A model generated the notes under the pieces. It saw only the letters and a program-made list of their open reading frames with translations. It did not search any database and had not been told where the DNA came from. Shown here one piece after another: positions 2,492 to 15,740 of a stretch of 24,126 bases of DNA. The stretch comes from a virus. Made by a program: the position numbers and the translations under genes. The DNA lies in IMG/VR virus record IMGVR_UViG_3300044237_001912, positions 1 to 24,126 of that record; one strand, written 5' to 3'. Each line of letters begins with the position of its first letter. Within the stretch, counting starts at the first letter, position 1.

Positions 2492-4351
2492 ATGCAACAA
2501 CCACTTTTTGCTCCTGAGAGTTCTTGGTCTGTGCCTGAAGTGTTTCCGCAGTTTTCGGAAACAGAAACAGTAGCAGTAGACTTAGAAACTTACGATCCAC
2601 ATCTAATGACTTGTGGTCCAGGCTGGGCTACAAGTCGTGGGTATATCGTAGGTATTGGGGTAGCTACTGAAAAGTGGTCTGGTTATTTTCCTATTCGTCA
2701 TCAAGGCGGTGGTAATTTAGATGAAGATATTGTTTTACGTTGGCTACGTAATCTACTTAGCTCTACTAAACGAGACGTTATATTTCATAACGCCCTCTAT
2801 GATGTAGGTTGGTTAAGGCGAGAAGGCGTAGAAATAAAAGGCAATATTCTAGATACTATAGTTGCCGCACCGCTAGTTGATGAACATCGCTATTCTTATT
2901 CGTTAGATAATCTAGGTGAGTTTTATTGTAACGAAAAGAAAGATGAATCGTTATTACGTGATGCTGCTCTAGCTTTCGGTATCAATCCTAAATCAGAGAT
3001 GTATAAACTACCTGCAAAATATGTTGGTCCTTACGGGCAACAAGATGCAGCGTTGACTTTAAAACTTTGGCATAAATTAAAAGCTGAAGTCGTTGCTCAA
3101 GATTTAGAAAAGATATTAGCTATGGAGTGTCGTCTAATACCGTTGTTATTAGAAATGCGATGGCGTGGCGTTAGAATAGATGAAGAACGAGCCGAGCAAG
3201 TTAGTAAACAGCTCTCTACCGAAGAACAAAAGTTACAAGTAGAAATAAAACGTAAGTATGGTGCTGAAGTTAATCTTTGGGCTAACGCTTCGTTACAAGA
3301 GATATTTGATAAGAATAAACTTTGGTACCCGCATACTGCAAAAGGTATGGCTAGTTTTCAAAAAGACTGGTTAGAAGGACATGAGCATGAACTACCGCAG
3401 TTGATCGTTAGGGCTAGAAAACTAAATAAAGCTAGAACAACGTTTATTGAAAAGATGATTCAAGAACATTGTTTTAACGGCAGGATACACGCGGAAGCCC
3501 ATGCTATGCGTAATGATCGTGGCGGCACGGTTAGCGGTCGGTTTAGTTATAGTAATCCTAATCTACAACAAGTACCTGCTCGTGATCCTGAGATAGGCAA
3601 TCTTATTCGTTCTTTATTTATTCCTGAAGACGGTTGTCAGTGGGGGGTATTTGATTATTCTCAACAAGAACCTAGACTTACCGTACATTATGCTGATCAG
3701 ATGAACTTAACAGGAGCAAAAGACGCAGTAGCTCAGTATACTAACGATAATGCTGACTTTCATCAGATCGTAGCAGATATGGCAAAAATACCACGTAAAC
3801 AAGCTAAGACGATAAATCTAGGACTTAGCTATGGTATGGGTAAAGAAAAACTAATTAAAGAACTAGGTGTTGATGATTTAGAAGCGGAAGCTCTATTTCT
3901 ACAATACCATGAGAAAGTACCTTTTATTAGAGCTTTACAAGATTATTGCACTCGCGTAGCTATGGATAGAGGATATATAAAAACTTTTGCAGGTAGACGA
4001 TGTCGTTTTGATTTATGGGAAAATAAATACGAACGCTCTACTCCGTTGCCTTTAAAAGACGCACAAGAAAAATACGGAGATAATTTAAAAAGATCATTTA
4101 CATATAAAGCCCTTAATAGATTAATTCAAGGCTCAGCAGCTGATATGACTAAATTAGCGATGTTAGGTCTATGGGAACAAGGTATTGTTCCGCACCTACA
4201 AGTACACGATGAAGTTGATGTTTCGGTAGTTGATCAAGAACAAGCTCTACTTATTTCTAAAACAATGCAAGATTGCGTAAAATTAGCAGTGCCGTTGTTA
4301 GTAGATGTAGAACTTGGTAAATCTTGGGGTGAAACAAAGGAGATACTATGA
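2492..4351 (+). CDS. polA: DNA polymerase I family (family A) with 3'-5' exonuclease
   Basis: The 619-residue replicative polymerase has an N-terminal DEDD exonuclease: Exo I DLE (D30, E32), Exo II HNALYD (N100, D104) and Exo III YGQQD (Y181, D185). The polymerase domain follows: motif A FDYSQQEPRL (catalytic D388), motif B RKQAKTINLGLSYG (R435, K439, L443, Y447) and motif C LQVHDEVDV (D573, E574). There is no 5'-3' exonuclease domain, as is usual for phage PolA. The residue equivalent to E. coli Phe762 is Leu443, a variant known from environmental virus polymerases. Motif A has Gln and Pro where DYSQIELR is canonical. The gene starts 2 bp after the preceding stop with no strong Shine-Dalgarno site, and overlaps the next gene by ATGA. 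It should copy phage DNA with proofreading. Confidence 0.97.
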   Translation: MQQPLFAPESSWSVPEVFPQFSETETVAVDLETYDPHLMTCGPGWATSRGYIVGIGVATEKWSGYFPIRHQGGGNLDEDIVLRWLRNLLSSTKRDVIFHNALYDVGWLRREGVEIKGNILDTIVAAPLVDEHRYSYSLDNLGEFYCNEKKDESLLRDAALAFGINPKSEMYKLPAKYVGPYGQQDAALTLKLWHKLKAEVVAQDLEKILAMECRLIPLLLEMRWRGVRIDEERAEQVSKQLSTEEQKLQVEIKRKYGAEVNLWANASLQEIFDKNKLWYPHTAKGMASFQKDWLEGHEHELPQLIVRARKLNKARTTFIEKMIQEHCFNGRIHAEAHAMRNDRGGTVSGRFSYSNPNLQQVPARDPEIGNLIRSLFIPEDGCQWGVFDYSQQEPRLTVHYADQMNLTGAKDAVAQYTNDNADFHQIVADMAKIPRKQAKTINLGLSYGMGKEKLIKELGVDDLEAEALFLQYHEKVPFIRALQDYCTRVAMDRGYIKTFAGRRCRFDLWENKYERSTPLPLKDAQEKYGDNLKRSFTYKALNRLIQGSAADMTKLAMLGLWEQGIVPHLQVHDEVDVSVVDQEQALLISKTMQDCVKLAVPLLVDVELGKSWGETKEIL

Positions 4352-4683
4352 GAGGTATAGATACATATAAAGCAGAACAAAACGCTAAACGTTATCGAGC
4401 AATCTATGACGATTGGAAAGCTGCAGAAGAAACGTTAGCAGAATTAGGCGAGAAATACGAGTTAACTAAACAAAGAGTTTGGCAAATAGTAACCCGTTGT
4501 AAGTTAGGTGACGGTGATTATTATAGGGGCGTACAAATTGCCCGTAATAAATGGACAGAATTTATGCAACTCTATCAAGATAATGAACAAAGCAAAAGGG
4601 CTTACGATGAGTGGCTAAAAGAAGTTGATGTCAAATTAGCTTCCGATAATCAAAAAGTAGCACCGCATACGGGATGGTTATAA
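4348..4683 (+). CDS. Small helix-turn-helix protein
   Basis: The 111-residue product overlaps the end of the polymerase gene (ATGA), with GGAG just upstream. Residues about 27-52 (ETLAELGEKYELTKQRVWQI) resemble the helix-turn-helix of sigma factor region 4 and of many small phage regulators: a first helix with LAELGEKY, a turn, and a recognition helix TKQRVWQIVTR. The rest is helical with charged residues. It is the last gene of the DNA-metabolism operon; a gap of 180 bp follows, so a role in controlling the switch to the downstream operons is possible. It could instead be a non-regulatory DNA-binding accessory protein. The HTH is seen in the sequence; its target is unknown. Confidence 0.68.
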   Translation: MRGIDTYKAEQNAKRYRAIYDDWKAAEETLAELGEKYELTKQRVWQIVTRCKLGDGDYYRGVQIARNKWTEFMQLYQDNEQSKRAYDEWLKEVDVKLASDNQKVAPHTGWL

Positions 4684-4827
4684 AATTACTAAATTTTTTA
4701 AAATCGGTTCCCAGAAACCGCACGTACGGCGTTTTTCAAAAGACCCCGAAGGTTTTAGTTAAGAACTATCTAAATACGCCCAGATCGGCTTATTTTAGCT
4801 TATATGCGTTTTGCTCGTCTGTACTCC

Positions 4828-4856
4828 TTTACTTAACTTATATTGACCTTTATTAT
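4828..4856 (+). promoter_or_regulatory. Sigma-70-type promoter, repeated TTTACT family, immediately upstream of ATG 4864
   Basis: TTTACT (4828-4833), a 17-bp spacer and TATTAT (4851-4856, five of six consensus bases). The hexamer is preceded by CTCC instead of the TGC seen in the other copies, but the CTTTACTT core and the spacer match. The expected transcription start falls at about the A of the ATG at 4864, implying a leaderless or almost leaderless message. Confidence 0.7.
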
Positions 4857-4863
4857 AGTTATT

Positions 4864-5619
4864 ATGACTAATTTTGTACTGCAGTACCCATTACTAGAAG
4901 ATAAAAGCGATAGACCGTATGAGTGTGAATGGTGCGGAGATAATTTTGGCGGTCATAAACGTAAATATTGTACGCCTAAATGTCGTGAAGAAGAAAGACG
5001 GTACGATGCTTATAAAGAAAAACAAGAAAGGTACAAGAAAAGAGAGATAAAAAAGGTAGAACGAGAAAAAGAAAAACAAGAAAAGCGTATTGCTAAATTA
5101 GATAAAGAATTAGCTAAACTACGTCAAGAAAATAAAAAATTTAAGTGTGTGGTTTGCGATAAAGAACTTACAGGTAGTCAAACATTGTATTGTAGTGATG
5201 AGTGTAGCAAATTAACTAGATTAGATGAACGTAAAAGACTTACTCCCGCAGAAAGTATTTTTTCTGAGGCTGGTAAATGGCATGAAGGGTATTACGGTAA
5301 GTGCAATGTAAATATTGTTGAGTCAAAAAACTGTTTAGAAGTTATAGATTTAACACCGTATACTTATGAAAGTGATTATTATATTGAAAAGTGTATTATA
5401 GAAGATTTACCAGAAGCTCGTTATACAGACGGTTCATGTCATATTAATCAAATACATAAAGGACTAGAATTCTACTATGGTCCACACTACCATGAAAAAG
5501 CATTTAATAAAGACCGAAAAAAGAGTGCAATAATAAAACTTGTAACTCTATTAAAACAAAGAATAACACAATTAGAAGATGGCGAAAGAAAAGAACCTAT
5601 GGTTGTTAATGCGGACTAA
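4864..5619 (+). CDS. Protein with two zinc-knuckle motifs joined by a charged helix
   Basis: I chose ATG 4864 because the promoter at 4828-4856 would start RNA at this codon; an in-frame TTG at 4843 lies inside that promoter. The 251-residue protein has two four-cysteine motifs of identical spacing, CxxC-x11-CxxxC: C21/C24/C36/C40 and C95/C98/C110/C114. Between them (about 41-94) is a long Glu/Lys/Arg-rich segment that should form a coiled coil or single alpha-helix. Residues 115-251 have no motif I recognise. The zinc motifs resemble small nucleic-acid or protein-binding treble-clef or MYM/FCS-type knuckles. The 3' end overlaps the next gene by 41 bp. Function is unknown; DNA or RNA binding is a guess. 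Confidence 0.8.
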   Translation: MTNFVLQYPLLEDKSDRPYECEWCGDNFGGHKRKYCTPKCREEERRYDAYKEKQERYKKREIKKVEREKEKQEKRIAKLDKELAKLRQENKKFKCVVCDKELTGSQTLYCSDECSKLTRLDERKRLTPAESIFSEAGKWHEGYYGKCNVNIVESKNCLEVIDLTPYTYESDYYIEKCIIEDLPEARYTDGSCHINQIHKGLEFYYGPHYHEKAFNKDRKKSAIIKLVTLLKQRITQLEDGERKEPMVVNAD

Positions 5620-5968
5620 TCTACCGTTTATACATCTACAACGAATCGAAACAGGTATGACAGGAGCAGGAGTGCCTGATGTAAACGGTTGTGCGAAAGG
5701 TAAAGAGTTTTGGGTAGAACTAAAAGAAATACATTCAGGTAATGCTCTTACTCTACGTCCTATGCAAGTAGCGTGGTTGGGTAAACGAGCAGCTCATGGT
5801 GGTCAAGTGTTTGTTTTAGCTAGAAAAAATGCTGAACTGAAACTCTACCATATAGACAGTTTAACAGGAATAAAAGAATTGATGAAGGGTGGTTATAACT
5901 CTCCCGCGTTGCTTACGTTAAACGTTCCTTACGATTGGGAGGCTCTTGGTAGTGCTTTACTTTCTTAA
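5579..5968 (+). CDS. VRR-NUC-type nuclease (PD-(D/E)XK fold)
   Basis: The 129-residue protein has the signature of small phage VRR-NUC or Holliday-junction-resolvase-like nucleases: GVPDVNG (P33, D34), FWVELKE (E47, K49) about 13 residues later, LTLRPMQVAWL with the conserved Gln63, and GGQVFVLAR (74-82). D34, E47 and K49 would form the metal-binding catalytic site. Families of this type cut branched or otherwise structured DNA, which fits processing of replication or recombination intermediates before packaging. It overlaps the preceding gene by 41 bp in another frame. Its last codons (Ala-Leu-Leu-Ser) also encode the extended -35 box of the downstream promoter. Confidence 0.85.
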   Translation: MAKEKNLWLLMRTNLPFIHLQRIETGMTGAGVPDVNGCAKGKEFWVELKEIHSGNALTLRPMQVAWLGKRAAHGGQVFVLARKNAELKLYHIDSLTGIKELMKGGYNSPALLTLNVPYDWEALGSALLS

Positions 5969-5984
5969 AGCTGTGCTTTTAAAT
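5953..5984 (+). promoter_or_regulatory. Promoter of the repeated TGCTTTACTTT family, upstream of the DUF932 operon
   Basis: The 11-mer TGCTTTACTTT (5953-5963) contains the -35 TTTACT (5956-5961). After 17 bp comes TTAAAT (5979-5984), a weak -10 with four of six consensus bases. The -35 box lies inside the last codons of the nuclease gene. The expected start is near 5991, giving a leader of about 50 nt before ATG 6041. Confidence 0.62.
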
Positions 5985-6040
5985 ATACGGGTAGCTAACA
6001 ACTACGATCATTATAACAGTGCAAACAAAACGGAGGTTTT

Positions 6041-7075
6041 ATGGCACATCAAGTAGAAACGATGGCGTGGGCTAATCAAGTACCTTGGCACGGATTAGGT
6101 GTCGAAGTAAGTGATGATCTTACACCATTACAAATGCAGGAGGCAGCAGGTCTAGACTGGACAGTTAGTAAACGTCCTAGTTATACGCTTGACGCACCTG
6201 AGTGGGGCGACGATGTTGGTTTAATCCAAGCGGAAAATACTTTCCACATCGTTCGCGATTCTGATAACCGTGTTCTTAGTCATTGCGGTAGGGATTATAT
6301 CCCTGTCCAAAATAAGGACATATTTGAGTTTTTTAAACGCTTTACTGAAGCGGGTCACATGAAAATGGAAACCGCAGGTAGTTTAAAAGACGGTGGAGAA
6401 ATTTGGGGCTTAGCCAAAATTTCTGAGGATTTCGAACTTGCGGGCGAAGACCATATTAAAGGGTATCTTTTAATACACCAACCGCACGTAGTAGGTAAGT
6501 CGATGACTATTAAACTTACACCAATAAGAGTTGTTTGTAACAACACTCTTACTTTTGCGTTAGGCGAGAAAGGTACAGCATCTTTCCGTATGCCACACGT
6601 TAAAGAGTTTGGGGCAGACGTCATGGAAGCTGCTGAGGAGGCGTTAGGTCTATCAGCAGAGAAGATGTCTAAGTTTAAAGAAGCGGCGGAGTTTCTTTCT
6701 AATAAGAAAGCTAAACACCCGCAGTTTTTAGACTTTGTAGGTGAGTTATATCAACCTAATACTATGTTGACGTATCGTCATGAAGCTAAACTAAAAGCTG
6801 ATGGTAAGTTAATTGGTGAACAAGCACCACTTATCGAGCAGTTCAATAAGTACCCTAAGTTAGTAGTAGATGCTCTTGAGCAACAGCCAGGAGCCAATCT
6901 AGCTTCTTCTAAAGGTACTTGGTGGGGTGCATTAAATGCAGTTACCTACGTAGAAGATCACTTACGTGAGTCTCACGAAAAAGGTAACAGCTTACACAGC
7001 TCTTGGTTCGGCGTGGCGGCTAACCGCAAAGCTAAAGCATTAGATTTAGCTATTAAATATGCGGAGACTGCCTAA
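6041..7075 (+). CDS. DUF932 phage/plasmid-like protein (TIGR03299 type)
   Basis: The 344-residue protein begins MAHQVETMAWANQVPWHGLG, the standard opening of the DUF932 family found on phages and plasmids. Further conserved blocks are LIHQPHVVGKS, LTPIRVVCNNTL (about 158-170) and FRMPHV (182-187), and the length fits the family. Its biochemical role is not established as far as I know; members occur near replication and recombination genes. The start has GGAGG six nt upstream (AACGGAGGTTTTATG). It is the first gene of an operon with three small overlapping genes and is expressed from the promoter at 5953-5984. Confidence 0.9.
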   Translation: MAHQVETMAWANQVPWHGLGVEVSDDLTPLQMQEAAGLDWTVSKRPSYTLDAPEWGDDVGLIQAENTFHIVRDSDNRVLSHCGRDYIPVQNKDIFEFFKRFTEAGHMKMETAGSLKDGGEIWGLAKISEDFELAGEDHIKGYLLIHQPHVVGKSMTIKLTPIRVVCNNTLTFALGEKGTASFRMPHVKEFGADVMEAAEEALGLSAEKMSKFKEAAEFLSNKKAKHPQFLDFVGELYQPNTMLTYRHEAKLKADGKLIGEQAPLIEQFNKYPKLVVDALEQQPGANLASSKGTWWGALNAVTYVEDHLRESHEKGNSLHSSWFGVAANRKAKALDLAIKYAETA

Positions 7076-7323
7076 TGTCTGATAACCCTACACACTACAA
7101 ATTTGACCACGAGGTCATGAGTATGATATGGGTTGCTCTACATGAGTCAGGTCTAGAAGACTTGGCTCAGGTAGTGTCTGACACTATGATTACGCAAGGT
7201 TGTCAAGAACTATCAGGTGTCGCCGATGGTGATGCTGTTACGGTCTTGGCTTTTTGGAAAAACTTTTTAGAAGATAAGGGCTTAGTCCATTTTTCTAACC
7301 CAGAGGAGGATTTAAATGGCTGA
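7075..7323 (+). CDS. Small acidic hypothetical protein
   Basis: The 82-residue product shares one base with the stop of the DUF932 gene (TAATG), so it is probably translated by reinitiation. It is acidic, with a predicted helical core (HEVMSMIWVALHESGLEDLA). I recognise no family. Its end overlaps the next gene by 8 bp, whose Shine-Dalgarno site (GAGGAGG) lies inside this coding sequence. Confidence 0.72.
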   Translation: MSDNPTHYKFDHEVMSMIWVALHESGLEDLAQVVSDTMITQGCQELSGVADGDAVTVLAFWKNFLEDKGLVHFSNPEEDLNG

Positions 7324-7600
7324 TTTAGAAATTAAAATAGATAAAGGCGTACCCCTTCCTGAAGATACTAGGAGTAGATCAAACTACCCTTTTGCTGATA
7401 TGGAAGTAGGTGACTCTATCTTTATACCGTTGGAAGAAGGTGATAACGCCCAACGTATGAAAAACCGTTTATCACAAGCTACTCGGACGTTTGGTAAAAA
7501 ACAAGACCCCGAGCAGCATTTTATAATTAGATACCGTCTAGAAAAGATAGGTGTTGGCGATAGAGAACTATCAGGAGTAAGGATATGGAGAAAAGACTAG
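7316..7600 (+). CDS. Conserved small phage protein (KGVPLP...YPF..MEVGDS type)
   Basis: The 94-residue protein has the pattern KIDKGVPLPEDTRSRSNYPF, then MEVGDSIFIP (30-39), a helical centre (AQRMKNRLSQATRTFG) and a C-terminal GVRIWRKD. Small proteins with this order (KGVP.P, YPF..M.VGDSF..P, then .R.W) are common in phages and prophages and have no known function to my knowledge. The beta-strand pattern at both ends suggests a compact domain. It starts inside the preceding gene behind a strong GAGGAGG site and overlaps the next gene by 16 bp. Confidence 0.8.
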   Translation: MADLEIKIDKGVPLPEDTRSRSNYPFADMEVGDSIFIPLEEGDNAQRMKNRLSQATRTFGKKQDPEQHFIIRYRLEKIGVGDRELSGVRIWRKD

Positions 7601-7788
7601 ACCCTGAGCAATACGTAAAAGACTTAGAAAAACACGTAAATAAATTAGCTGACGATTTAGTGAAGGCTCGAACTCTACTAGAATTAAGTCTTACGGTTAT
7701 CAGTCCTGTAGACGATACGAAAGGCGTAAAAGATAGTATTGAAGATTATCTTTATGGGGCTACTCGTAATTACGTTGATCAAGACTAA
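7585..7788 (+). CDS. Small coiled-coil hypothetical protein
   Basis: The 67-residue product starts inside the preceding gene at an ATG behind AGGA, with 16 bp of overlap. Residues about 8-40 (YVKDLEKHVNKLADDLVKAR) show a leucine heptad pattern typical of a short coiled coil. The rest is acidic. It is the last gene of the DUF932 operon. No family recognised. Confidence 0.62.
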   Translation: MEKRLDPEQYVKDLEKHVNKLADDLVKARTLLELSLTVISPVDDTKGVKDSIEDYLYGATRNYVDQD

Positions 7789-7796
7789 TCTTATAC

Positions 7797-7828
7797 TGCT
7801 TTACTTTCGTTTTACTCTAAGGCAGAAT
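7797..7828 (+). promoter_or_regulatory. Promoter of the repeated TGCTTTACTTT family, upstream of gene 7885
   Basis: TGCTTTACTTT (7797-7807) with -35 TTTACT (7800-7805), a 17-bp spacer and CAGAAT (7823-7828, four of six consensus bases). It lies in the 96-bp gap after the DUF932 operon, with a leader of about 50 nt before ATG 7885. Confidence 0.62.
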
Positions 7829-7839
7829 AGGTACTATGT

Positions 7840-7855
7840 TCTACCGCAAGGTAGA
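7840..7855 (+). promoter_or_regulatory. Hairpin in the 5' leader of gene 7885
   Basis: TCTACC (7840-7845), loop GCAA (a GNRA tetraloop), GGTAGA (7850-7855): six perfect pairs. It sits between the promoter at 7797-7828 and the ribosome-binding site AAAGGAG of gene 7885, so it could protect the messenger 5' end or affect translation. The role is inference. Confidence 0.45.
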
Positions 7856-7884
7856 TAATTTTAACAACTAGAAAGGAGAAAGAT

Positions 7885-8241
7885 ATGCAAACGCAAACTT
7901 CAACTTCATCTTCTGTAAAAAGAAGACCTGCTGTCAAAAAGACAGCAAAAAGCAAGGGGATAACTATCCCTGAACCAAAACAAGCCAGTAAAGGCTCAGC
8001 ACGTACTTTATATAAGTACAGTGGTAAAAAAATCGAGTGCAAAACTGCACAGATGATAGCTTTAATCAAAACTGTACAAGAAGCTAAAAAAGGTGAGCTT
8101 GACTCGTCTAGCTTTACAGCACAGGATTTGGTTAAACTTGCTGTTAAACAAGGTAATTTGATTACTGGTCAAGAACCTATGCGAATCTTTAGGTTTTATA
8201 CTAAAAGATTGAAAGACGAAGGTTACTTTTCGAAGGTATAA
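7885..8241 (+). CDS. Small basic protein, candidate winged-helix DNA-binding protein, single-gene unit
   Basis: The 118-residue protein has a Ser/Thr/Lys-rich basic N-terminal tail (1-40) and a helical C-terminal domain ending FRFYTKRLKDEGYFSKV. The order helix, TAQDLVKLA helix, then YTKRLKDEGYF resembles a winged-helix domain, in which the last helix precedes the wing. The same ending pattern (P..I...Y..R...EG) recurs in the protein at 13646-13939, so the two may be distant paralogues. The gene has its own promoter (7797), leader hairpin, strong site (GAAAGGAG) and a long terminator (8248-8310): a self-contained transcription unit. A DNA-binding role fits the charge but is inferred. Confidence 0.75.
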   Translation: MQTQTSTSSSVKRRPAVKKTAKSKGITIPEPKQASKGSARTLYKYSGKKIECKTAQMIALIKTVQEAKKGELDSSSFTAQDLVKLAVKQGNLITGQEPMRIFRFYTKRLKDEGYFSKV

Positions 8242-8247
8242 TTACCC

Positions 8248-8310
8248 GTGAGTGTGCGAACACTGTAAATAGTCCCGATGTTACACTATTGTTCGTACAC
8301 TCACCTTTTT
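8248..8310 (+). terminator. Rho-independent terminator with a 15-bp stem and structured loop
   Basis: GTGAGTGTGCGAACA (8248-8262) pairs with TGTTCGTACACTCAC (8290-8304) over 15 bp with one G-U pair, followed by C and five T (8306-8310). The 27-nt loop contains TGTAA/TTACA and AATAG/CTATT complementary pairs in interleaved order. It begins 6 bp after the stop of gene 7885. Confidence 0.8.
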
Positions 8311-8321
8311 AGGGGAAGAAA

Positions 8322-8528
8322 ATGAAAATACAATTTATTAAAGATAACGGCGAAGTTATTGAAACTACGGTCACGGAACTAAGTAGAGCAATCTATAGTT
8401 TCGGTTCAGCATTTACTAGCGAGGAGTTTAGTAATGCACTCTACGATTTTATAGAAGAAAAACAACAAGAAGATGAAAATTCTTTACACGCTAGATTGCG
8501 TAATGTACAACACGATGATACCAGATAG
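8322..8528 (+). CDS. Small acidic hypothetical protein
   Basis: The 68-residue product starts 11 bp after the terminator with GGGGAAG as ribosome-binding site. It begins with a strand-like segment (MKIQFIKDNGEVIETT) followed by helices with many acidic residues. No promoter is evident between the terminator and this gene, so it may depend on read-through. No family recognised. Confidence 0.65.
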   Translation: MKIQFIKDNGEVIETTVTELSRAIYSFGSAFTSEEFSNALYDFIEEKQQEDENSLHARLRNVQHDDTR

Positions 8529-8563
8529 TTTTTATGTCTTGGTTTTTACGTGGTGTCTAATAG

Positions 8564-8595
8564 TGCTTTACTTTGCTAATATTGGCGTTTAATAT
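8564..8595 (+). promoter_or_regulatory. Promoter of the repeated TGCTTTACTTT family, upstream of gene 8629
   Basis: TGCTTTACTTT (8564-8574) with -35 TTTACT (8567-8572), a 17-bp spacer and TAATAT (8590-8595, four of six). The next bases after the 11-mer, GCTAATA, are identical to those of the copy at 9701. The leader ends in the repeated AAGAAAGGAGAAAGTTATG segment. Confidence 0.66.
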
Positions 8596-8628
8596 AAATA
8601 CTATAACTAAACAAGAAAGGAGAAAGTT

Positions 8629-8766
8629 ATGAATAAAAAAGACGATAAACCATTATCACCAGAGGAGCGTAGACGCATTAGTAGTCAATACACTATTGCC
8701 CCTGCGTATAATAAAGGAGCCTATCAGGTTATCCCTAAAGACGATATTAAACATATAGGGAGGTAA
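8629..8766 (+). CDS. Very small hypothetical protein (45 aa)
   Basis: The ATG at 8629 stands at the end of the repeated leader segment AAGAAAGGAGAAAGTTATG, the same segment that starts genes 9767, 11808 and 12129, which is the main reason to accept so short a gene. The product begins MNKKDDKPLSPEERRRISSQ and ends DDIKHIGR. It is basic and hydrophilic. Its last codons (GGG AGG TAA) supply the Shine-Dalgarno sequence for the next gene, 2 bp downstream, so the two are coupled. Function unknown. Confidence 0.68.
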   Translation: MNKKDDKPLSPEERRRISSQYTIAPAYNKGAYQVIPKDDIKHIGR

Positions 8767-8768
8767 TT

Positions 8769-9200
8769 ATGGGTTTAGATTGTTATGTAGTTCACAGCAA
8801 TGATCGTGAAAAAGCATTTACTCATGAAGATGACGACCGTATCAAAGATATTAATTTATGTGGAGGCATGATGAGTGGTCATGGTGCCGATGGTTCGTTT
8901 AGAGGTAAAGTTTATGAACCATTAGTAGGTGAACTTATGGACGAACCAGGACTCTGGCATATTGAAGGCGAAGACGCTCATATTACTAGCCAAGAATTAA
9001 AACAACAAGCCGACGCGTTAGGTCAGCTGATTACGGCTAAGTTAGAAGATGCAGACGAACTTGATGAAGTGGTTGAAGACGATACTATTATTTATCAAAG
9101 TAGCATCGGTTACGAATATACTTTTAAAGAAGTTTGTGATTTAGAGACTTTGTTTCGAGTAGCTTCAGAGCGTGGTGCAGTAATGACGGTATGGTGGTAA
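8769..9200 (+). CDS. Hypothetical acidic phage protein
   Basis: The 143-residue product starts MGLDCYVVHSNDREKAFT with GGGAGG 7 nt upstream. It contains a Gly/Met-rich block (LCGGMMSGHGADGSFRG, 30-46), an acidic centre and ends GAVMTVWW. Small proteins opening MGLD.Y are common in phages, but I recall no function for them. It is the second gene of the operon driven by the 8564 promoter. Confidence 0.7.
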   Translation: MGLDCYVVHSNDREKAFTHEDDDRIKDINLCGGMMSGHGADGSFRGKVYEPLVGELMDEPGLWHIEGEDAHITSQELKQQADALGQLITAKLEDADELDEVVEDDTIIYQSSIGYEYTFKEVCDLETLFRVASERGAVMTVWW

Positions 9201-9201
9201 T

Positions 9202-9504
9202 ATGAAAAAGATTAAATACGCAACAATTCCAATATTAGAAAAGCTAGTAGAACAAGCAGAACGTGCCGATAAAAACCAATATCCTGATATGTATAAAATT
9301 AACGAAACGATTAGCGAGTTAGAACTAGATCATGAAACGGTTAAGTTTCCGATTGTAATGACTCTTGATCATAACGATATCGAAGTACGAGCCGTATTTA
9401 ATATCCCAAATATAGATGACCCTACCGTTATGGATAGGTTTTTATTAGATATGGAATATCAAGATTATAACGAACTACCTGCCGTGGTGATGAGCGATGA
9501 ATAG
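9202..9504 (+). CDS. Acidic hypothetical protein
   Basis: The 100-residue protein begins 2 bp after the previous stop and overlaps the next gene by 8 bp. It has a short basic start (MKKIKYATIP) then a strongly acidic body with alternating hydrophobic residues (VKFPIVMTLDHNDIEVRAVF), suggesting beta strands. No family recognised. Confidence 0.66.
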   Translation: MKKIKYATIPILEKLVEQAERADKNQYPDMYKINETISELELDHETVKFPIVMTLDHNDIEVRAVFNIPNIDDPTVMDRFLLDMEYQDYNELPAVVMSDE

Positions 9505-9700
9505 TAAGAAAGCTAAATTGTTACGCAAAGTTTTGAAAAAAGGTGGGGTCGATTGGCGGCAAGCTAAACACGTACAACGGATAACTAAAGATCACCAAGG
9601 TAACGAGCAACGTGAGCCGACGATATTTTTAGACCCTAAATGTGGTCGTGCAATTTACCGTATGTCAAAACGTATGGCTAAAGTCAGGGGCTTGGTATAG
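9497..9700 (+). CDS. Small basic phage protein
   Basis: The 67-residue protein is strongly basic: MNSKKAKLLRKVLKKGGVDW at the start, then FLDPKCGRAIYRMSKRMAKV. The pattern DPKCGRAIYR is one I associate with small conserved phage proteins of unknown role, often preceded by a KK.LRK helix. The single Cys and the many Arg/Lys make nucleic-acid binding possible. The start lies within the preceding gene (ATGAATAG overlap). Its TAG stop is directly followed by the TGCTTTACTTT box at 9701. Confidence 0.7.
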   Translation: MNSKKAKLLRKVLKKGGVDWRQAKHVQRITKDHQGNEQREPTIFLDPKCGRAIYRMSKRMAKVRGLV

Positions 9701-9732
9701 TGCTTTACTTTGCTAATACTCGTAACTATAAT
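9701..9732 (+). promoter_or_regulatory. Promoter of the repeated TGCTTTACTTT family with perfect TATAAT
   Basis: TGCTTTACTTT (9701-9711), -35 TTTACT (9704-9709), a 17-bp spacer and a perfect TATAAT (9727-9732). This is the copy that shows most clearly that the repeated box is the -35 region of a sigma-70-type promoter. It starts on the base after the preceding stop codon and drives genes from 9767 onward. Confidence 0.85.
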
Positions 9733-9766
9733 TTAATAATAACTAATAACAAGAAAGGAGAAAGTT

Positions 9767-9988
9767 ATGAATGAAAAAATGATGATCGAGTTACTTGACA
9801 AACTTACGGAGACTTTACGTAAAGTTGTCGAAACTCAAAAGTCACAAGAGGAAGTCAATAAACAACTTGTTGACGAAATACTAACCTTGAAAAACCGCAT
9901 ACTTATGCTAGAAATGGAAAAGCAGACAGTTGAGCGTGTAAAGACGCTGCTAAGTAAAGAGGAGGTTGATGATGTTGACCACAAGTGA
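9767..9988 (+). CDS. Small coiled-coil protein
   Basis: The 73-residue protein follows the leader segment AAGAAAGGAGAAAGTTATG. Almost the whole length is helical with a leucine/isoleucine heptad pattern (MIELLDKLTETLRKVVETQ through RILMLEMEKQTVERVKTLL), so it should form a coiled-coil dimer or higher oligomer. The end is acidic. It overlaps the next gene, whose GGAGG site lies inside it. No family recognised. Confidence 0.7.
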   Translation: MNEKMMIELLDKLTETLRKVVETQKSQEEVNKQLVDEILTLKNRILMLEMEKQTVERVKTLLSKEEVDDVDHK

Positions 9989-10253
9989 TATTAAAAACCA
10001 AGCGTTGAAATATGTTACTGAGCATTTACAATACGATAACTTTACTGAGCAACAGATAGCAGATGCTCACAACTGGGTGGTCGAGGTCTTACTCGACTTT
10101 GAAAAAGTTTATGGACCTTCGGATAAACTCTATAAGAGTGACGTTTTGAGGTTTCTAGAACAGTATTTAGAAAGTAATTACTCGCACGTGGCAGAGGGTC
10201 CAGCAGAAGATTACAGTCCTGAATACGTAAAACAACATACACTAAGGAGGTAG
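9972..10253 (+). CDS. Small hypothetical protein
   Basis: There are two adjacent ATG codons (9969 and 9972) in the same frame; I prefer 9972, which lies 6 nt after AGGAGG (9960-9965), giving 93 residues. It overlaps the previous gene by 17 bp in another frame. The sequence is mainly helical and acidic (IADAHNWVVEVLLDFEKVYG). It ends with AAGGAGG of the next gene. No family recognised. Confidence 0.66.
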   Translation: MLTTSDIKNQALKYVTEHLQYDNFTEQQIADAHNWVVEVLLDFEKVYGPSDKLYKSDVLRFLEQYLESNYSHVAEGPAEDYSPEYVKQHTLRR

Positions 10254-10255
10254 TG

Positions 10256-10534
10256 ATGCAAGATAAAATAAATATGGGAGGTGAAGTGGCAACTTTTGTC
10301 TGTGATAATGCTGAAGAAATAATATTGAATTTAATTACAGATCACGAAGTTGTATCAGACGAAGTTCTAAATAAAATACATACTAAGATTGTTAAAGAAA
10401 AAACACTTAGAAGAGGACGAGCTGCGGACGCTACTCCTGAGGAGAGAGAAAAAGCGGTTTGTCTGCAAATTGAAGATGTGTTTTCTGACGAAAATTTAGA
10501 GAGGTTGGAGAGAGAACATCAGGAGGAAGTATGA
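10256..10534 (+). CDS. Acidic helical hypothetical protein
   Basis: I chose ATG 10256, five nt after AAGGAGG (10244-10250); a GTG at 10253 overlaps the preceding stop and is less well placed. The 92-residue product is acidic and helical apart from a basic patch (KEKTLRRGRAADATPEEREK). It overlaps the next gene by 4 bp (ATGA). No family recognised. Confidence 0.66.
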   Translation: MQDKINMGGEVATFVCDNAEEIILNLITDHEVVSDEVLNKIHTKIVKEKTLRRGRAADATPEEREKAVCLQIEDVFSDENLERLEREHQEEV

Positions 10535-10758
10535 CGGATAGAACAAAAAACTTACCGAAAGGTTTAGCTATCGGAACAACTGAACAAACGGTTACTAATC
10601 CATTTTCAGGAGAAAGTGTGTTATTGAAACCTGACGCTATTGCAGTCTATGATTTTATCAAAGGTAGCGAAGCCTTAAAACAATACGACGATATGCGAGA
10701 AGGTTTAGATTGGTTTATGCAACACGAACCTGAAGCGTATATGACGTTATTAGATTAA
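10531..10758 (+). CDS. Small hypothetical protein
   Basis: The 75-residue product overlaps the preceding stop (ATGA) with AGGAGG upstream. It reads LPKGLAIGTTEQTVTNPFSG and then AIAVYDFIKGSEALKQYDDM. The centre, TNPFSGESVLLKPDAIAVYD, resembles small phage proteins found in similar clusters, but I know no function. It closes the 9701-promoter operon; a 97-bp gap without an evident promoter follows. Confidence 0.66.
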   Translation: MTDRTKNLPKGLAIGTTEQTVTNPFSGESVLLKPDAIAVYDFIKGSEALKQYDDMREGLDWFMQHEPEAYMTLLD

Positions 10759-10855
10759 TTATGAAGGTTAGCGGAAAAGAGGATAGCTATTAAAGACCAA
10801 ATCCTGTTTGGCTGAGATGTCATATGAACAACGCCTTTATAACTAGGAGCAAATT

Positions 10856-11056
10856 ATGGATATAAAAAAATTAAATCAAGAATACAGTTACTCATGGTCG
10901 GATAAACGTAGCCCGTACGAAATCTTTTTTGATAATATGTACAAAGCATATCTACTCGAAAAAGAAGCGTATGGTGAAAAAGATGTTTTGAGTAAAACAG
11001 ATTATTTCGAAGCTAATCAAGATTTTTTATTACAAAAGTTTAAGGAGGAAGCATGA
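10856..11056 (+). CDS. Small hypothetical protein
   Basis: The 66-residue protein starts after TAGGAGC, 7 nt upstream. It is charged and rich in Tyr and Phe (SYSWSDKRSPYEIFFDNMYK). Its last codons contain AGGAGGAAGC, which is the ribosome-binding site of the next gene (ATGA overlap). No promoter box of the repeated family is present in the gap before it, so it may be read through from 9701. No family recognised. Confidence 0.64.
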   Translation: MDIKKLNQEYSYSWSDKRSPYEIFFDNMYKAYLLEKEAYGEKDVLSKTDYFEANQDFLLQKFKEEA

Positions 11057-11322
11057 ATGAAGAACATATTTATGCAGATGCAAGTGAAGTTGATTATGAT
11101 ACAGTCAGCTATAAAAAGTTTTATTGGTATGACACACAAGCATACAGTTGGTGGGGAGACGATAACGAGGGTCTTATATATGGCTATGTTGAATGGTATG
11201 GAGACCAAAGACTAGATGATGCTTGTGAAATTGATGATGGAACAGTTGTGCAGTGGTCATGGTTTAAAACCGAAAAAGAAAGAAATAAAGAATTTAATAA
11301 ATGGAATAAGGAGGAAGCATGA
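11053..11322 (+). CDS. Acidic, Trp/Tyr-rich hypothetical protein
   Basis: The 89-residue product starts inside the previous stop (ATGA) behind AGGAGG. It is strongly acidic and rich in Trp and Tyr (YKKFYWYDTQAYSWWGDDNE). Acidic small phage proteins of this kind are sometimes DNA mimics or inhibitors, but nothing here identifies a target. It ends with the same AGGAGGAAGCATGA junction that starts it, so the junction is duplicated between these neighbours. Confidence 0.66.
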   Translation: MNEEHIYADASEVDYDTVSYKKFYWYDTQAYSWWGDDNEGLIYGYVEWYGDQRLDDACEIDDGTVVQWSWFKTEKERNKEFNKWNKEEA

Positions 11323-11651
11323 ACATAGCAGTATTAGAGCCGTATTCGGATAGAGATGAATTTGAAGAATTTAAATGGGATATAAAAAAATGTTTTGAAA
11401 ATTATTTAGGTAGAAAAGTTTTAATATACTCTGATAATCATGGTTGGAATAATGACGAAGTATCTTATGAATTTATTTTAGATTGTCCTTACGATATCTT
11501 TTGGAAGATAATACCTAACTCTGATTGGAGTTTTAGTATAGGAACTTTAAATGGCAAAAAAGACGAGCTTTTATTTGAAGCAAAAGTTGGTTGTCATGAC
11601 GGAACTAGCACATATAAATTACAGATAATTAATCAAGAGGAGGAAGGTTGA
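11319..11651 (+). CDS. Acidic hypothetical protein
   Basis: The 110-residue protein begins MNIAVLEPYSDRDEFEEFKW and overlaps the preceding stop by 4 bp with AGGAGG upstream. Alternating hydrophobic and charged residues (EVSYEFILDCPYDIFWKIIP) suggest a mixed alpha/beta fold; net charge is negative. It ends QEEEG and is the last gene before the 11741 promoter. No family recognised. Confidence 0.67.
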   Translation: MNIAVLEPYSDRDEFEEFKWDIKKCFENYLGRKVLIYSDNHGWNNDEVSYEFILDCPYDIFWKIIPNSDWSFSIGTLNGKKDELLFEAKVGCHDGTSTYKLQIINQEEEG

Positions 11652-11740
11652 AGTCAGCAGGTTTTATGTATTTTTATTTTTCCTGTCATAACAACTTAGA
11701 GTGCAGTTGTCTGACGAAAGCACTCGCCCCTTGGTATTAC

Positions 11741-11772
11741 TGCTTTACTTTGGCGGTATTCGTAAGTAAAAT
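11741..11772 (+). promoter_or_regulatory. Promoter of the repeated TGCTTTACTTT family, upstream of gene 11808
   Basis: TGCTTTACTTT (11741-11751), -35 TTTACT (11744-11749), a 17-bp spacer and TAAAAT (11767-11772, five of six). The leader ends with the repeated AAGAAAGGAGAAAGTTATG segment. Confidence 0.78.
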
Positions 11773-11807
11773 GTATTTAATAACTATTAATAAGAAAGGA
11801 GAAAGTT

Positions 11808-12011
11808 ATGACTAAGAAAAAAATATACGTTGGAAAATGTATTGAGGTGGGCGTACCTAGAGTATGGGGTATGACCGAAGAAAAATGTAGAGAAGCTATG
11901 GATAGTTACACGGCTAACCATGTTCGAAATAAAGCATTACAGATGTTCGAATATGACGGCGACGATCCATACGTTGCTCTAGCTGACCCTATGGGAGGTA
12001 AACGAGTATGA
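11808..12011 (+). CDS. Small hypothetical protein
   Basis: The 67-residue product follows the repeated leader segment. It begins MTKKKIYVGKCIEVGVPRVW and contains YDGDDPYVALADPMGGKRV at the end. No family recognised. Its stop overlaps the start of the 43-codon gene at 12008 (ATGA). Confidence 0.68.
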   Translation: MTKKKIYVGKCIEVGVPRVWGMTEEKCREAMDSYTANHVRNKALQMFEYDGDDPYVALADPMGGKRV

Positions 12012-12139
12012 CCGATAAACTTAAATATTCAAAAAATGATTATGGTCATTATCGTGTTCGAGTAGATAATAAAGAATTTTATTCTTTACGAGAAGCAAGA
12101 GCATATATTAATAAGAAAGGAGAAAGTTATGACAGATAA
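12008..12139 (+). CDS. Very small hypothetical protein (43 aa) carrying the repeated leader segment in frame
   Basis: The ORF starts at the ATGA overlap with gene 11808 and ends 11 bp into gene 12129. It reads MTDKLKYSKNDYGHYRVRVD then KEFYSLREARAYINKKGESY. The last codons (Asn-Lys-Lys-Gly-Glu-Ser-Tyr) are the translation of the repeated ribosome-binding segment AATAAGAAAGGAGAAAGTTA that serves gene 12129. The Tyr-rich start followed by FYSLREARAYI has the look of a small AP2-like or integrase-arm-type strand-strand-helix, but this is only an impression. Confidence 0.6.
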   Translation: MTDKLKYSKNDYGHYRVRVDNKEFYSLREARAYINKKGESYDR

Positions 12140-12530
12140 AATCTATGAGTTTTATATATTAGACCCTAGAGCAGACGTAATTAGGAGAACTAATTACAGT
12201 GTTAGTAGCCCGAAAGGTAGTCATAAAATCTTTAGAGGTACAGTAGAAGACTTCCAAAAAGTAGAAGAACTCTATGGTGAGCTCTGGGCTAAAGTGATAG
12301 ATAACCAACTAGGACTACTCGGCGACGAACATGCAGGAGTATTAACGGACGACCCGATATTACAAAACTGGGAAGGTGCCGAGATTATTGCCGTATATTT
12401 CGATACTAAAGTCGAGTTTTATGAGTTTTATTATTTAGGTGACGGTAAGTTAGAAGCAGTACCTACTGATCAAGGCGAAACGTTTGGAGTGACCGAGTCT
12501 GCTATTTACTACGACGAAGACGGAATGTAA
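12129..12530 (+). CDS. Acidic hypothetical protein
   Basis: The 133-residue product starts behind the repeated AAGAAAGGAGAAAGTTATG segment, here without its promoter. It is acidic and looks mixed alpha/beta (YEFYILDPRADVIRRTNYSV, KVEFYEFYYLGDGKLEAVP). Its first four residues, MTDK, equal those of the upstream 43-residue protein. It is the last gene of region 3; 424 bp without a gene follow. No family recognised. Confidence 0.7.
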   Translation: MTDKIYEFYILDPRADVIRRTNYSVSSPKGSHKIFRGTVEDFQKVEELYGELWAKVIDNQLGLLGDEHAGVLTDDPILQNWEGAEIIAVYFDTKVEFYEFYYLGDGKLEAVPTDQGETFGVTESAIYYDEDGM

Positions 12531-12543
12531 CGCACTAAAAGGG

Positions 12544-12641
12544 TTGACTCTATTATATGCACCACGTGGAGTTAGTACCATACTATATGATGCAAAGGTA
12601 CCCTTAGAGTTGACTATCAAAGTCCTACCAAGTAGAGTCAA
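12544..12641. repeat. Inverted repeat TTGACTCTA / TAGAGTCAA
   Basis: Nine-base arms at 12544-12552 and 12633-12641 are perfect inverted copies about 80 bp apart. The right arm lies in the loop of the terminator at 12624-12662. Either paired operators or a long-range RNA stem would explain them; chance is possible for arms of this size. Confidence 0.4.
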
Positions 12642-12662
12642 TGACACTTGGTAGGCATTTTT
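12624..12662 (+). terminator. Rho-independent terminator
   Basis: CCTACCAAGT (12624-12633) pairs perfectly with ACTTGGTAGG (12646-12655), 10 bp, followed by CA and five T (12658-12662). It lies about 95 bp after the stop of gene 12129 and closes the accessory transcripts. Confidence 0.72.
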
Positions 12663-12675
12663 AGAGACTTCTCTT

Positions 12676-12710
12676 AACCCCCGATTGTTTACGACAGTCG
12701 AGGGTTTTTT
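12676..12710 (+). terminator. Second rho-independent terminator
   Basis: AACCCCCGATTGT pairs with ACAGTCGAGGGTT around loop TTACG, with one C/A mismatch and one G-T pair, followed by a run of T (to 12710). It directly follows the first terminator, giving a double stop before the small terminase gene. Confidence 0.7.
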
Positions 12711-12915
12711 ATTTATCGTATTAGTGTTTTTAAAAATAAAATTTTTTGTTCAAAGAAATGTTAAAAACTACTAATATCTCTAATATAGTAATAGAATCGT
12801 TCTGTAATGGTCTATATCATTGGATTCTTGTCTCTATCAAAAGTAATAGATTTTCTATTAGTTATTAGAAACATATGGTATGATTCACTAGAGGGCATGA
12901 GAAAACTATTTTATT

Positions 12916-12943
12916 TTGATATTTTCTATTATTATTGTAATAA
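12916..12943 (+). promoter_or_regulatory. Candidate promoter upstream of small terminase
   Basis: TTGATA (12916-12921), a 16-bp spacer and TAATAA (12938-12943). ATG 12955 would be about 5 nt after the expected transcription start, so the leader would be almost absent. The surrounding DNA is so AT-rich that a chance match is possible. Confidence 0.35.
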
Positions 12944-12954
12944 CTCTATTGGAT

Positions 12955-13488
12955 ATGAAACAACTGACTTACACGCAATTAATCCCTACCGAAGACGGTA
13001 AAGCATATGTTGACGACAAGGGTAAGACTTGGCAACCACTCAACTCGAAACAAAAGAAGTTTTGTAAAGAGTATTTGAAAGGTCAAACAGCTACCGAAGC
13101 TGCTATCAAAGCAGGCTATACAAAGGACAGAAAGGGTGCAAAGACACAAGGCAGTGTATTACTGAATCATAACCCAGTTGTACGAAACTACCTGATTGAT
13201 CTAGAAATCGCCGCTTCAGAGAGGGACGCAGTTTCTCTAGAGAGTCATTTGTCCACGCTCCACGACCTGCGAGAAGAAGCCAAGGACCAAGGACAGATAT
13301 CCGCAGCCATAACAGCCGAAGTGCATCGAGGCAAAGCTGGTGGACTCTACATCGATAGACGCGAGATACTGACTGCAAAGATTGATTTGATGTCCAAGGA
13401 CGACATTCTCACTCGACTCGAAGAATTAATAAAGAAACGCTCTACTGAATCCAATGTCATTGAAGGTGACTTCAGGCAAACTGACTGA
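12955..13488 (+). CDS. terS: Terminase small subunit
   Basis: I chose ATG 12955 (177 residues); the open frame upstream encodes a hydrophobic run unlike the family. Residues about 28-65 carry the small-terminase DNA-recognition pattern: LNSKQKKFCKEYLKGQTATE, then AAIKAGYTKD, GSVLLNHNPVVRNYL. This is a helix-turn-helix that recognises the packaging site on concatemeric DNA and hands it to the large subunit. The C-terminal part is helical and charged, suited to oligomerisation. Codon use differs from the neighbours: only 3 of 18 leucines use TTA, while CTG and CTC make up 10, against strong TTA preference in the large subunit. The large subunit lies 3.3 kb away instead of directly downstream. 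Confidence 0.85.
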   Translation: MKQLTYTQLIPTEDGKAYVDDKGKTWQPLNSKQKKFCKEYLKGQTATEAAIKAGYTKDRKGAKTQGSVLLNHNPVVRNYLIDLEIAASERDAVSLESHLSTLHDLREEAKDQGQISAAITAEVHRGKAGGLYIDRREILTAKIDLMSKDDILTRLEELIKKRSTESNVIEGDFRQTD

Positions 13489-13556
13489 GTTCAAAAGAAG
13501 GACCGACCGACGGACCGAGGGATTTTGTTCCGTAAATCTTGTGTTTAATCCTAGAC

Positions 13557-13588
13557 TGCTTTACTTTGGTATCAGTCCAGCGTATAGT
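13557..13588 (+). promoter_or_regulatory. Promoter of the repeated TGCTTTACTTT family, upstream of gene 13646
   Basis: TGCTTTACTTT (13557-13567), -35 TTTACT (13560-13565), a 17-bp spacer and TATAGT (13583-13588, five of six). The bases before the box (ACTGC) match the copies at 7797 and 11741. Confidence 0.78.
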
Positions 13589-13955: not shown

Positions 13956-13984
13956 AAAGGGTGGCTTCGGCTGCCCTTTTTTTT
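13956..13984 (+). terminator. Strong rho-independent terminator after gene 13646
   Basis: AAAGGGTGGC (13956-13965), TTCG tetraloop, GCTGCCCTTT (13970-13979), with two G-T pairs, then five more T (to 13984). It begins 17 bp after the stop. Confidence 0.9.
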
Positions 13985-13986
13985 GT

Positions 13987-14025
13987 GCTCTACTCTATCG
14001 CTCTACTCTATCGCTCTACTCTATC
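13987..14025. repeat. Three perfect tandem copies of a 13-mer
   Basis: GCTCTACTCTATC occurs at 13987-13999, 14000-14012 and 14013-14025, followed by a partial CGTCGGTCTATC. It starts 3 bp after the terminator. No coding or structural role is evident; slippage-prone spacer or a recombination relic are both possible. Confidence 0.85.
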
Positions 14026-14085
14026 CGTCGGTCTATCTTTTTATTACAGACAAACCCAGACACTGACCCGCACCCAACGAACGAG

Positions 14086-14112
14086 GGACGGACGGACGGA
14101 CGGACGGACGGA
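14086..14112. repeat. Tandem GGAC tetranucleotide array
   Basis: GGAC is repeated 6.75 times (14086-14112). A related degenerate run, GACCGACCGACGGACCGAGG, is at 13501-13520 on the other side of the 13646 cassette; both have GAGGGA and GGATTT-like ends nearby. The array is GC-rich in an otherwise AT-rich spacer of 261 bp (13940-14200). Confidence 0.85.
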
Positions 14113-14166
14113 TTTAATTTAGGATTTAGGTTAGTTAGGTTAGTTAAATTATATTTATAGTTAGTA

Positions 14167-15729: not shown

Positions 15730-15740
15730 TGCTTTACTTT
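15730..15740 (+). promoter_or_regulatory. Orphan TGCTTTACTTT box directly before ATG 15743
   Basis: An exact copy of the repeated 11-mer, preceded by AAC as in the 7797 and 11741 type, fills almost the whole 14-bp gap between two genes. At the required 17-bp spacing lies AATTAA (15756-15761), inside the next gene and a poor -10. It therefore looks like a -35 region without its promoter partner. Confidence 0.5.

Follow-up and report, generated by a model that had tools for sequence, protein, structure and literature searches.

The DNA analysed here (the window) is a stretch of 24,126 nt that makes up the entire viral record IMGVR_UViG_3300044237_001912 of IMG/VR and is itself a genome fragment. 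Its accessory region carries a family of sites in which an extended -35 box is followed, at a fixed spacer of 17 bp, by a -10-like hexamer. Judged from their sequence, the seven sites that have this -10 are nearly certain to form a promoter regulon, and it seems probable to us that the host RNA polymerase suffices to read the box with no obligatory phage factor. Each site would then be a sigma70-type promoter whose -10 is read by the host RNA polymerase and whose -35 slot is occupied, in the window's clade, by the extended box TA(G/C)TGCTTTACTTT ahead of the 17-bp spacer. As at T4 early promoters, the box would most likely be read by the host holoenzyme. The small accessory genes form groups that each have a promoter of their own and mostly a strong ribosome site, and the host enzyme would turn them on with no obligatory help from the phage.

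The box TGCTTTACTTT is the commonest 11-mer of the window. All seven exact copies listed in a preliminary description of this DNA were found, every one on the + strand, for 0.05 expected and a maximum of 2 in 100 shuffles. When up to two mismatches were allowed, 27 matches were obtained against 20 expected, a number reached by 8 of 100 shuffles, indicating that the signal sits in exact or near-exact copies. The first predicted promoter (4825-4856, + strand like all the others) has a TCC-flanked box, TCCTTTACTTA, at 4825-4835, with TTTACT at 4828 and the -10 TATTAT 17 bp further on at 4851-4856. The other six carry TGCTTTACTTT. Promoter 2 (5953-5984; TTTACT at 5956) has TTAAAT at 5979-5984 and lies upstream of a DUF932 gene at 6041; promoter 3 (7797-7828; TTTACT at 7800) has CAGAAT at 7823-7828, upstream of gene 7885; and promoter 4 (8564-8595; TTTACT at 8567) has TAATAT at 8590-8595, upstream of gene 8629. 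Promoter 5 (9701-9732; TTTACT at 9704) shows TATAAT at 9727-9732 before gene 9767, promoter 6 (11741-11772; TTTACT at 11744) TAAAAT at 11767-11772 before gene 11808, and promoter 7 (13557-13588; TTTACT at 13560) TATAGT at 13583-13588 before gene 13646. From promoter 1 to promoter 7, these hexamers match TATAAT at 5, 4, 4, 4, 6, 5 and 5 of six positions, against a background of 10.3% of hexamers with at least four matches in nine intergenic stretches of the window. At the six promoters with the exact box, the next start codon lies 33-57 nt past the -10 and is preceded each time by a GGAG ribosome site.

The seven sites out of eight that had been credited with a -10-like hexamer exactly 17 bp after TTTACT are thus the six exact copies and the TCC-flanked one, and that count is right. 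The eighth box (15730-15740, + strand; TTTACT at 15733) is followed at 17 bp by AATTAA, which matches TATAAT at 3 of 6 positions, and the ATG of gene 15743 begins two bases downstream of it. Since this copy has no -10 at 17 bp and abuts a start codon, we rejected it as a promoter, which it probably is not. The site at the left end had been described as a variant at 4823; it is real, and it is better seen as a family member with a TCC flank at 4825 that is conserved in L089, a near relative. Another clade usually has this TCC flank. The boxes had also been placed always at gene ends or in gaps, which holds for 5953, overlapping the last codons of an open reading frame (ORF) that ends at 5968, and for the copies in gaps, except that 11741 falls inside a short ORF (11648-11815) that we take as spurious.

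Relatives of the window were drawn from IMG/VR via the terminase, the DNA polymerase, the box pattern and a helix-turn-helix (HTH) protein that is discussed below. A scan of such phages with a motif model, as the preliminary description had proposed, showed that the box recurs with a strand bias and a sharp preference for the 17-bp spacer. Among 18 related records of 52-68 kb, 13 contain a total of 59 exact copies of TGCTTTACTTT, 58 of them on the majority strand of their record (the other one is in G013), and a reversed control pattern gave one match in the same 18 records. The five records without an exact 11-mer bear the HTH gene and belong to more distant groups, one of them (G014) being of the TCC clade. 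Closer to the window, 26 of 29 loci with a polymerase 81-100% identical to its own have 2 to 6 copies on the coding strand and none on the other; L110 and L111 have none because their flank is TGG, and the third, L115, terminates at the polymerase gene.

To build a profile, 188 sites, many of them from overlapping loci of one contig, were dereplicated at 80% identity, leaving 51. As these were selected by the exact 11-mer, the box columns are invariant by construction; the full profile reads T-A-(G/C)-TGCTTTACTTT-(C/G), with a T conserved in 94% at -19 and TAnnnT following the 17-bp spacer. Positions A2 and T6 of the -10 are present in 90% of the 51 sites at 17 bp and in at most 27% at any other offset from 7 to 41 bp, and at least four matches to TATAAT occur in 69% of the sites at 17 bp, the next best offset being 22 bp with 43%. 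Apart from the T at -19 and the adjoining C/G, the spacer is variable. The conservation around the -35 hexamer that had been noticed is thus confirmed, and its extent also takes in the upstream TA(G/C) and the T at -19.

Two further tests, a de novo ranking of 8-mers in the -35 slot and a scan for TTTAC-18-TAnnnT, were not selected by the exact 11-mer. They were run on representative loci hand-picked among those fetched, as were the 9-mer search, the start-codon comparison and the inverted-repeat counts given below. The top 8-mer was TTTACTTT in 7 of 18 groups, which are those with a promoter array, and also in the L298 group; it ranked second in the TAG group and third in L151, and was not among the top 8-mers in the other eight groups. 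It is the common core of flanks that are mostly one per clade (TGC, TGG/TAG/TGT or TCC), although L272-L274 and L286 mix two or three types. The TGC flank accompanies 41 of the 48 TTTACTTT sites of the TGC clades, and a G before TTTAC is present in the TGG/TAG clades. The TTTAC-18-TAnnnT scan gave the following matches (forward/reverse): TGC clades 65/29, TCC clade 25/3, L311 clade 17/1, TGG/TAG/TGT clades 22/10, and seven loci without the HTH gene 4/13. The bases following TTTAC are TTT in 48 of 65 forward sites (TGC), 20 of 25 (TCC), 7 of 17 (L311) and 15 of 22 (TGG/TAG/TGT).

Individual sites also keep their place. The 13557 site recurs in G001-G004, where the gene that follows begins similarly (MI(D/N)KN), and G010 has a like site before a different start; the -10 at the equivalent site is AATAAT in G001, G002 and G010. 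Such equivalent placement in related genomes bears on the idea that the boxes are recently duplicated repeats or chance occurrences and not promoters. Alike leaders after several boxes (AAGAAAGGAGAAAGTTATG), together with one leader copy at 12110 that has no box, would fit it, but only 0.05 copies are expected by chance, and the box and the -10 are conserved while the spacer varies, except for the T at -19 and the adjoining C/G. We consider this explanation very improbable and rejected functionless duplicated repeats, since conservation is confined to these elements. The leader AATAAGAAAGGAGAAAGTTATGAC at 11789-11812 is repeated at 12110-12133 before gene 12129, without a box, as if the end of a cassette had been copied.

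A different anchor for the -10 comes from the promoter found near downstream of the HTH gene. Of 26 loci examined for it, 18 (including L089, L104, L109, L092, L273, L275, L285-L288, L291, L294 and L313) have a gene of at least 138 aa whose ATG follows the end of this -10 by 6-8 nt, for instance at the sites L089:7197, L104:12331, L285:10492, L291:10906 and L313:10902; the remaining eight (L110, L111, L113, L143, L298, L311, L323 and L341) gave no gene of this kind. At promoter 1 of the window, the next gene has its in-frame ATG at 4864, 7 nt past the -10. The protein encoded by the gene after this promoter has CxxC motifs. The distance from -10 to ATG fits a leaderless mRNA, which we predict from sequence for this promoter, and it anchors the -10 independently of the box. 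Together with the fixed spacer and the recurrence, the sequence supports the proposal that the boxes are promoters that define the transcription units of the accessory region.

Which polymerase would read these promoters? No phage RNA polymerase was detected in 19 records, which may be fragments (T7 as a positive control, E 9.9e-110), and no MotA domain in 14 records (T4 control, E 3.2e-63). No match to sigma region 2 exceeded the cut-off in 15 records, a weak test in that T4 gp55 itself scores E 0.004; a match in G007 has E 0.008. Given an ordinary -10 and neither a phage RNA polymerase nor MotA, we infer that the host polymerase is the enzyme. The sites would be transcribed, with a timing that may be that of T4 early promoters. 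Promoters of a single-subunit phage RNA polymerase were rejected, no such gene being detected in the 19 records. Like T4 middle promoters, the sites contain TGCTTTA, the MotA box core (available text of PMC2988021). However, MotA boxes lie 12 +/- 1 bp from the -10 according to the same text, and the box described here lies 19 bp from it; on account of this distance of 19 bp instead of 12 and of the missing MotA domain in the 14 records, MotA-type middle promoters were also rejected.

The closest known parallel is the T4 early promoter, which, in the available text of PMC2988021, is read by the host polymerase at once after infection and holds extra consensus. Both families have a TTTAC(A/T) core in the -35 slot, a 17-bp spacer, conserved flanks and many copies, and the TGG and TAG flanks of two of our clades occur in T4 sites too. 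Submitted to the same test, 139 kb of T4 gave 42 TTTAC-18-TAnnnT sites on the early strand against 8 on the opposite one; TTTAC is preceded by G in 90% of them, and box position 6 is A (64%) or T (33%). Unlike T4 early promoters, the present sites have T and not A at position 6, followed by TT in most cases, C before TTTAC in the window's clade, no TGn and a conserved T at -19. Thus, we would not file the family as T4 early promoters, only as probably working like them.

A second parallel is found in marine T4-like contigs. G019, a record of 159 kb that encodes a major capsid protein of T4 type (Gp23, 468.8 bits) and an exonuclease of the family of T4 RNase H, contains TGCTTTACTTT six times forward and once reverse; all five forward sites examined have the 17-bp spacer, and no match to the HTH family was found in the record. 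The box identical to the window's, the spacer and a -10 that is mostly TATAAT liken G019/L172 to the window's family, as does site likeness for L208 and L261, but the sequence after the box is mostly AATTCA in these contigs and the 159-kb record has no HTH match. The marine contigs L172 (with a T4-type capsid gene), L208 and L261 show promoter-like AGTGCTTTACTTTAATTCA sites at a 17-bp spacer, the box being identical to that of the window. The preliminary description had remarked that the host polymerase does not need the conserved flanks and that an extra factor may read them; that the host polymerase cannot account for the extended box is not established, as T4 early promoters and G019, which has no HTH match, show a like box and spacer.

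Several observations nevertheless weigh against the host polymerase as a sufficient reader. Position 6 of the box in the 65 forward sites of the TGC clades (T in 54, A in 4) is stricter than in the T4 box; TTTAC is preceded by C, not G, in these clades, there is no TGn, and the T at -19 is 94% conserved. The loose pattern also gave 29 reverse for 65 forward matches in the TGC clades, so not every TTTAC-18-TAnnnT site is a promoter. The -35 helix of host sigma varies little, and mostly clade-specific flanks would be odd if host sigma alone read the box. Finally, an inverted repeat described below may point to a dimeric phage DNA-binding protein.

The candidate for a second reader of the box is the HTH protein itself, a product of 111 aa encoded at 4348-4683 (+ strand) directly after the DNA polymerase, with the helix TKQRVWQI. 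In the window and in the loci with an adjoining polymerase match, the HTH gene follows the polymerase gene directly or within about 100 bp. The protein matches Pfam Mor at 26.4 bits (cut-off 24.9), a match that covers the HTH only (58-95 of 107 positions), and Sigma70_r4 at 15.9 bits, below the cut-off. Across the 19 records searched, Mor was matched in 15 and above the cut-off in 6; the sigma region 4 profile was matched in 16, at one place each plus a second, weak one in G013, and gave no match in G002, G011 and G012. With a profile of the HTH family, the best solved relatives are region 4.2 of sigma70 (RpoD), at E about 4e-4, aligned to TLEEVGKQFDVTRERIRQI; region 4.2 is the part of sigma70 that reads the -35. 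Residues T40, K41, Q42, R43, W45, Q46 and I47 are invariant in 39 aligned homologues. A Foldseek search with a model of the protein gave no match under E 0.001, and structural comparison gave low scores throughout (HetR Z 5.9, Mor 4.5, sigma-A region 4 4.3). A tblastn search with the protein against 50,697 phage records returned nothing at E 0.01. Bacterial genomes yielded 14 stretches with the helix pattern and one confirmed relative, on an 8.3-kb contig of a Marinimicrobia metagenome-assembled genome that has no TTTAC(T/C)-17-TAnnnT.

It is doubtful, yet conceivable, that the 4348 protein is a dedicated activator, that is, a free-standing module resembling sigma region 4.2 that takes over from sigma region 4 in reading TTTACTTT with its flank and recruits the host polymerase to the -10, which would make the regulon middle rather than early. 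The proximity of the family profile to sigma70 region 4.2 speaks for it, as does the invariance of the helix residues across flank variants that keep TTTACTTT as common core. That invariance is, however, partly due to ascertainment, since distant homologues were found through the pattern TKQRVWQI. Nine comparison loci lack TTTACTTT-15-TAnnnT on both strands, and no HTH homologue was found in the sequence examined of eight of them, the sequence of L122 stopping short of the region after the polymerase. Against this co-occurrence, the polymerase of even the distant HTH-bearing loci is closer to the window's (57-63% identity) than that of the HTH-less loci (47-53%), so that kinship and HTH presence are confounded and the independent events are few.

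The activator conflicts with other distributions as well. The HTH-bearing groups L292, L307, L308, L325 and L327 have no promoter array, and L296 and L299 about one site each; a 9-mer search for promoters of the groups without an array gave hints only. The T4-like G019 has the box without an HTH match. A pattern scan of viral contigs returned at least 120 loci; among the matches listed, 104 carry one copy of TGCTTTACTTT and 16 two or more, as raw counts without a chance expectation, and of these 16 multi-copy loci six have an HTH homologue and ten have none in the sequence examined. Some of those ten, again among the matches listed, look like fragments of related phages (L213, L237, L149); L172, L208, L261 and L184 are T4-type-like, as tested by one family for L172, L208 and L184, and L234, L220 and L170 are unplaced. 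Another conflict is that a second box, TAGGGATC-like, occupies the same slot in the L293 and L298 groups despite an identical recognition helix. This second promoter-like class, with TAG(G/T)(G/C)AT(C/G), about 15 nt and then TATACT, is found in the accessory regions of L298, L302 and L293 (e.g. L302:18037, 18765, 19333, 19846 and 20155).

Another known system close to this one is that of Mor and C of phage Mu, in which Mor replaces the -35 contacts at a sigma70 promoter (PMC4390567, in the text available). The 4348 protein resembles Mor and C of Mu in passing the Pfam Mor cut-off over its HTH. Unlike Mor, which at Pm binds inverted repeats centred at -43.5, it would have its box in the -35 slot itself; no dyad operator was found near -43.5 in the 51 sites, whose columns upstream of the box are weakly conserved. 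We offer only as a tentative possibility that these phages encode the -35-reading helix of sigma70 as a free-standing copy, retuned from TRERIRQI to TKQRxWQI so as to recognise a -35 that is itself retuned, TTTACTTT in place of TTGACA. With neither a sigma factor nor an RNA polymerase of its own, the phage would thereby have a minimal means of redirecting the host polymerase, and the clade flanks would be a record of changing specificity.

Of 33 HTH-bearing representatives, 24 have an inverted repeat of the half-site, TTTAC/GTAAA, at a distance of 5-8 kb upstream of the HTH gene (examples are L096:5689, L273:3814, L298:3554, L307:3723 and L291:2918). The repeat occurs in none of seven comparison loci, where a looser pattern finds one, in L349; this contrast also fits an activator. 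Its density is 25 in the 98.6 kb of the 5-8 kb zone versus 4 in 527 kb elsewhere. Its centre measures either 2-3 or 13 bp depending on the clade, a difference of about one helical turn. It stands in a promoter-like place, kilobases ahead of the polymerase and HTH genes, after a gene that we take to be helicase-like from motifs in its ORF. We think it unlikely that the 4348 protein is a repressor or timer that turns early promoters off later in infection by occupying TTTAC half-sites, both as a dimer where they form the inverted repeat ahead of the replication genes and at the single boxes that cover the -35, a role compatible with promoters read by the host. The location of the repeat ahead of the polymerase and HTH genes suggests autoregulation, the two centre lengths about one helical turn apart are consistent with such binding, and the protein is small and all helical. 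However, the single boxes are not clearly dyad-symmetric, the binding itself is only putative, and a repressor meets the same conflicts as an activator.

With the host holoenzyme as the preferred reader of the box, the sites yield a predicted map of transcription for a group of marine phages that are uncultivated. Among the closest named relatives of this group are the pelagiphages HTVC027P and HTVC023P (terminase 53% and 51%). One core box, several flanks, an HTH family, an inverted-repeat site and HTH-less relatives as controls constitute a natural test of how phages take over the host polymerase. Were the HTH protein to read the box, phages would have a very small route to switching promoters; otherwise, early promoters of the T4 style would have arisen, or been retained, in an unrelated lineage of phages. 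Judged by their titles, none of the papers containing TGCTTTACTTT concerns phage promoters, and no title among the matches listed in literature searches is on this promoter family; the available text of PMC5349666, PMC9004378 and PMC9599517 has no bearing on the promoter family, the word "promoter" occurring 0 times in that of PMC9599517.

Two other features of the window were observed. Tandem CTCTACTCTATCG and GGAC repeats occupy 13961-14122, in the gap after 13939, and CTCTACTCTA arrays are also present in L110, L273 and L275. At the left end, an HMUDK domain (5-hmdU DNA kinase; 64-765) adjoins a thymidylate synthase homologue (762-1832), a gene pair that suggests hypermodified thymidine in the phage DNA, which could matter for a T-rich box.

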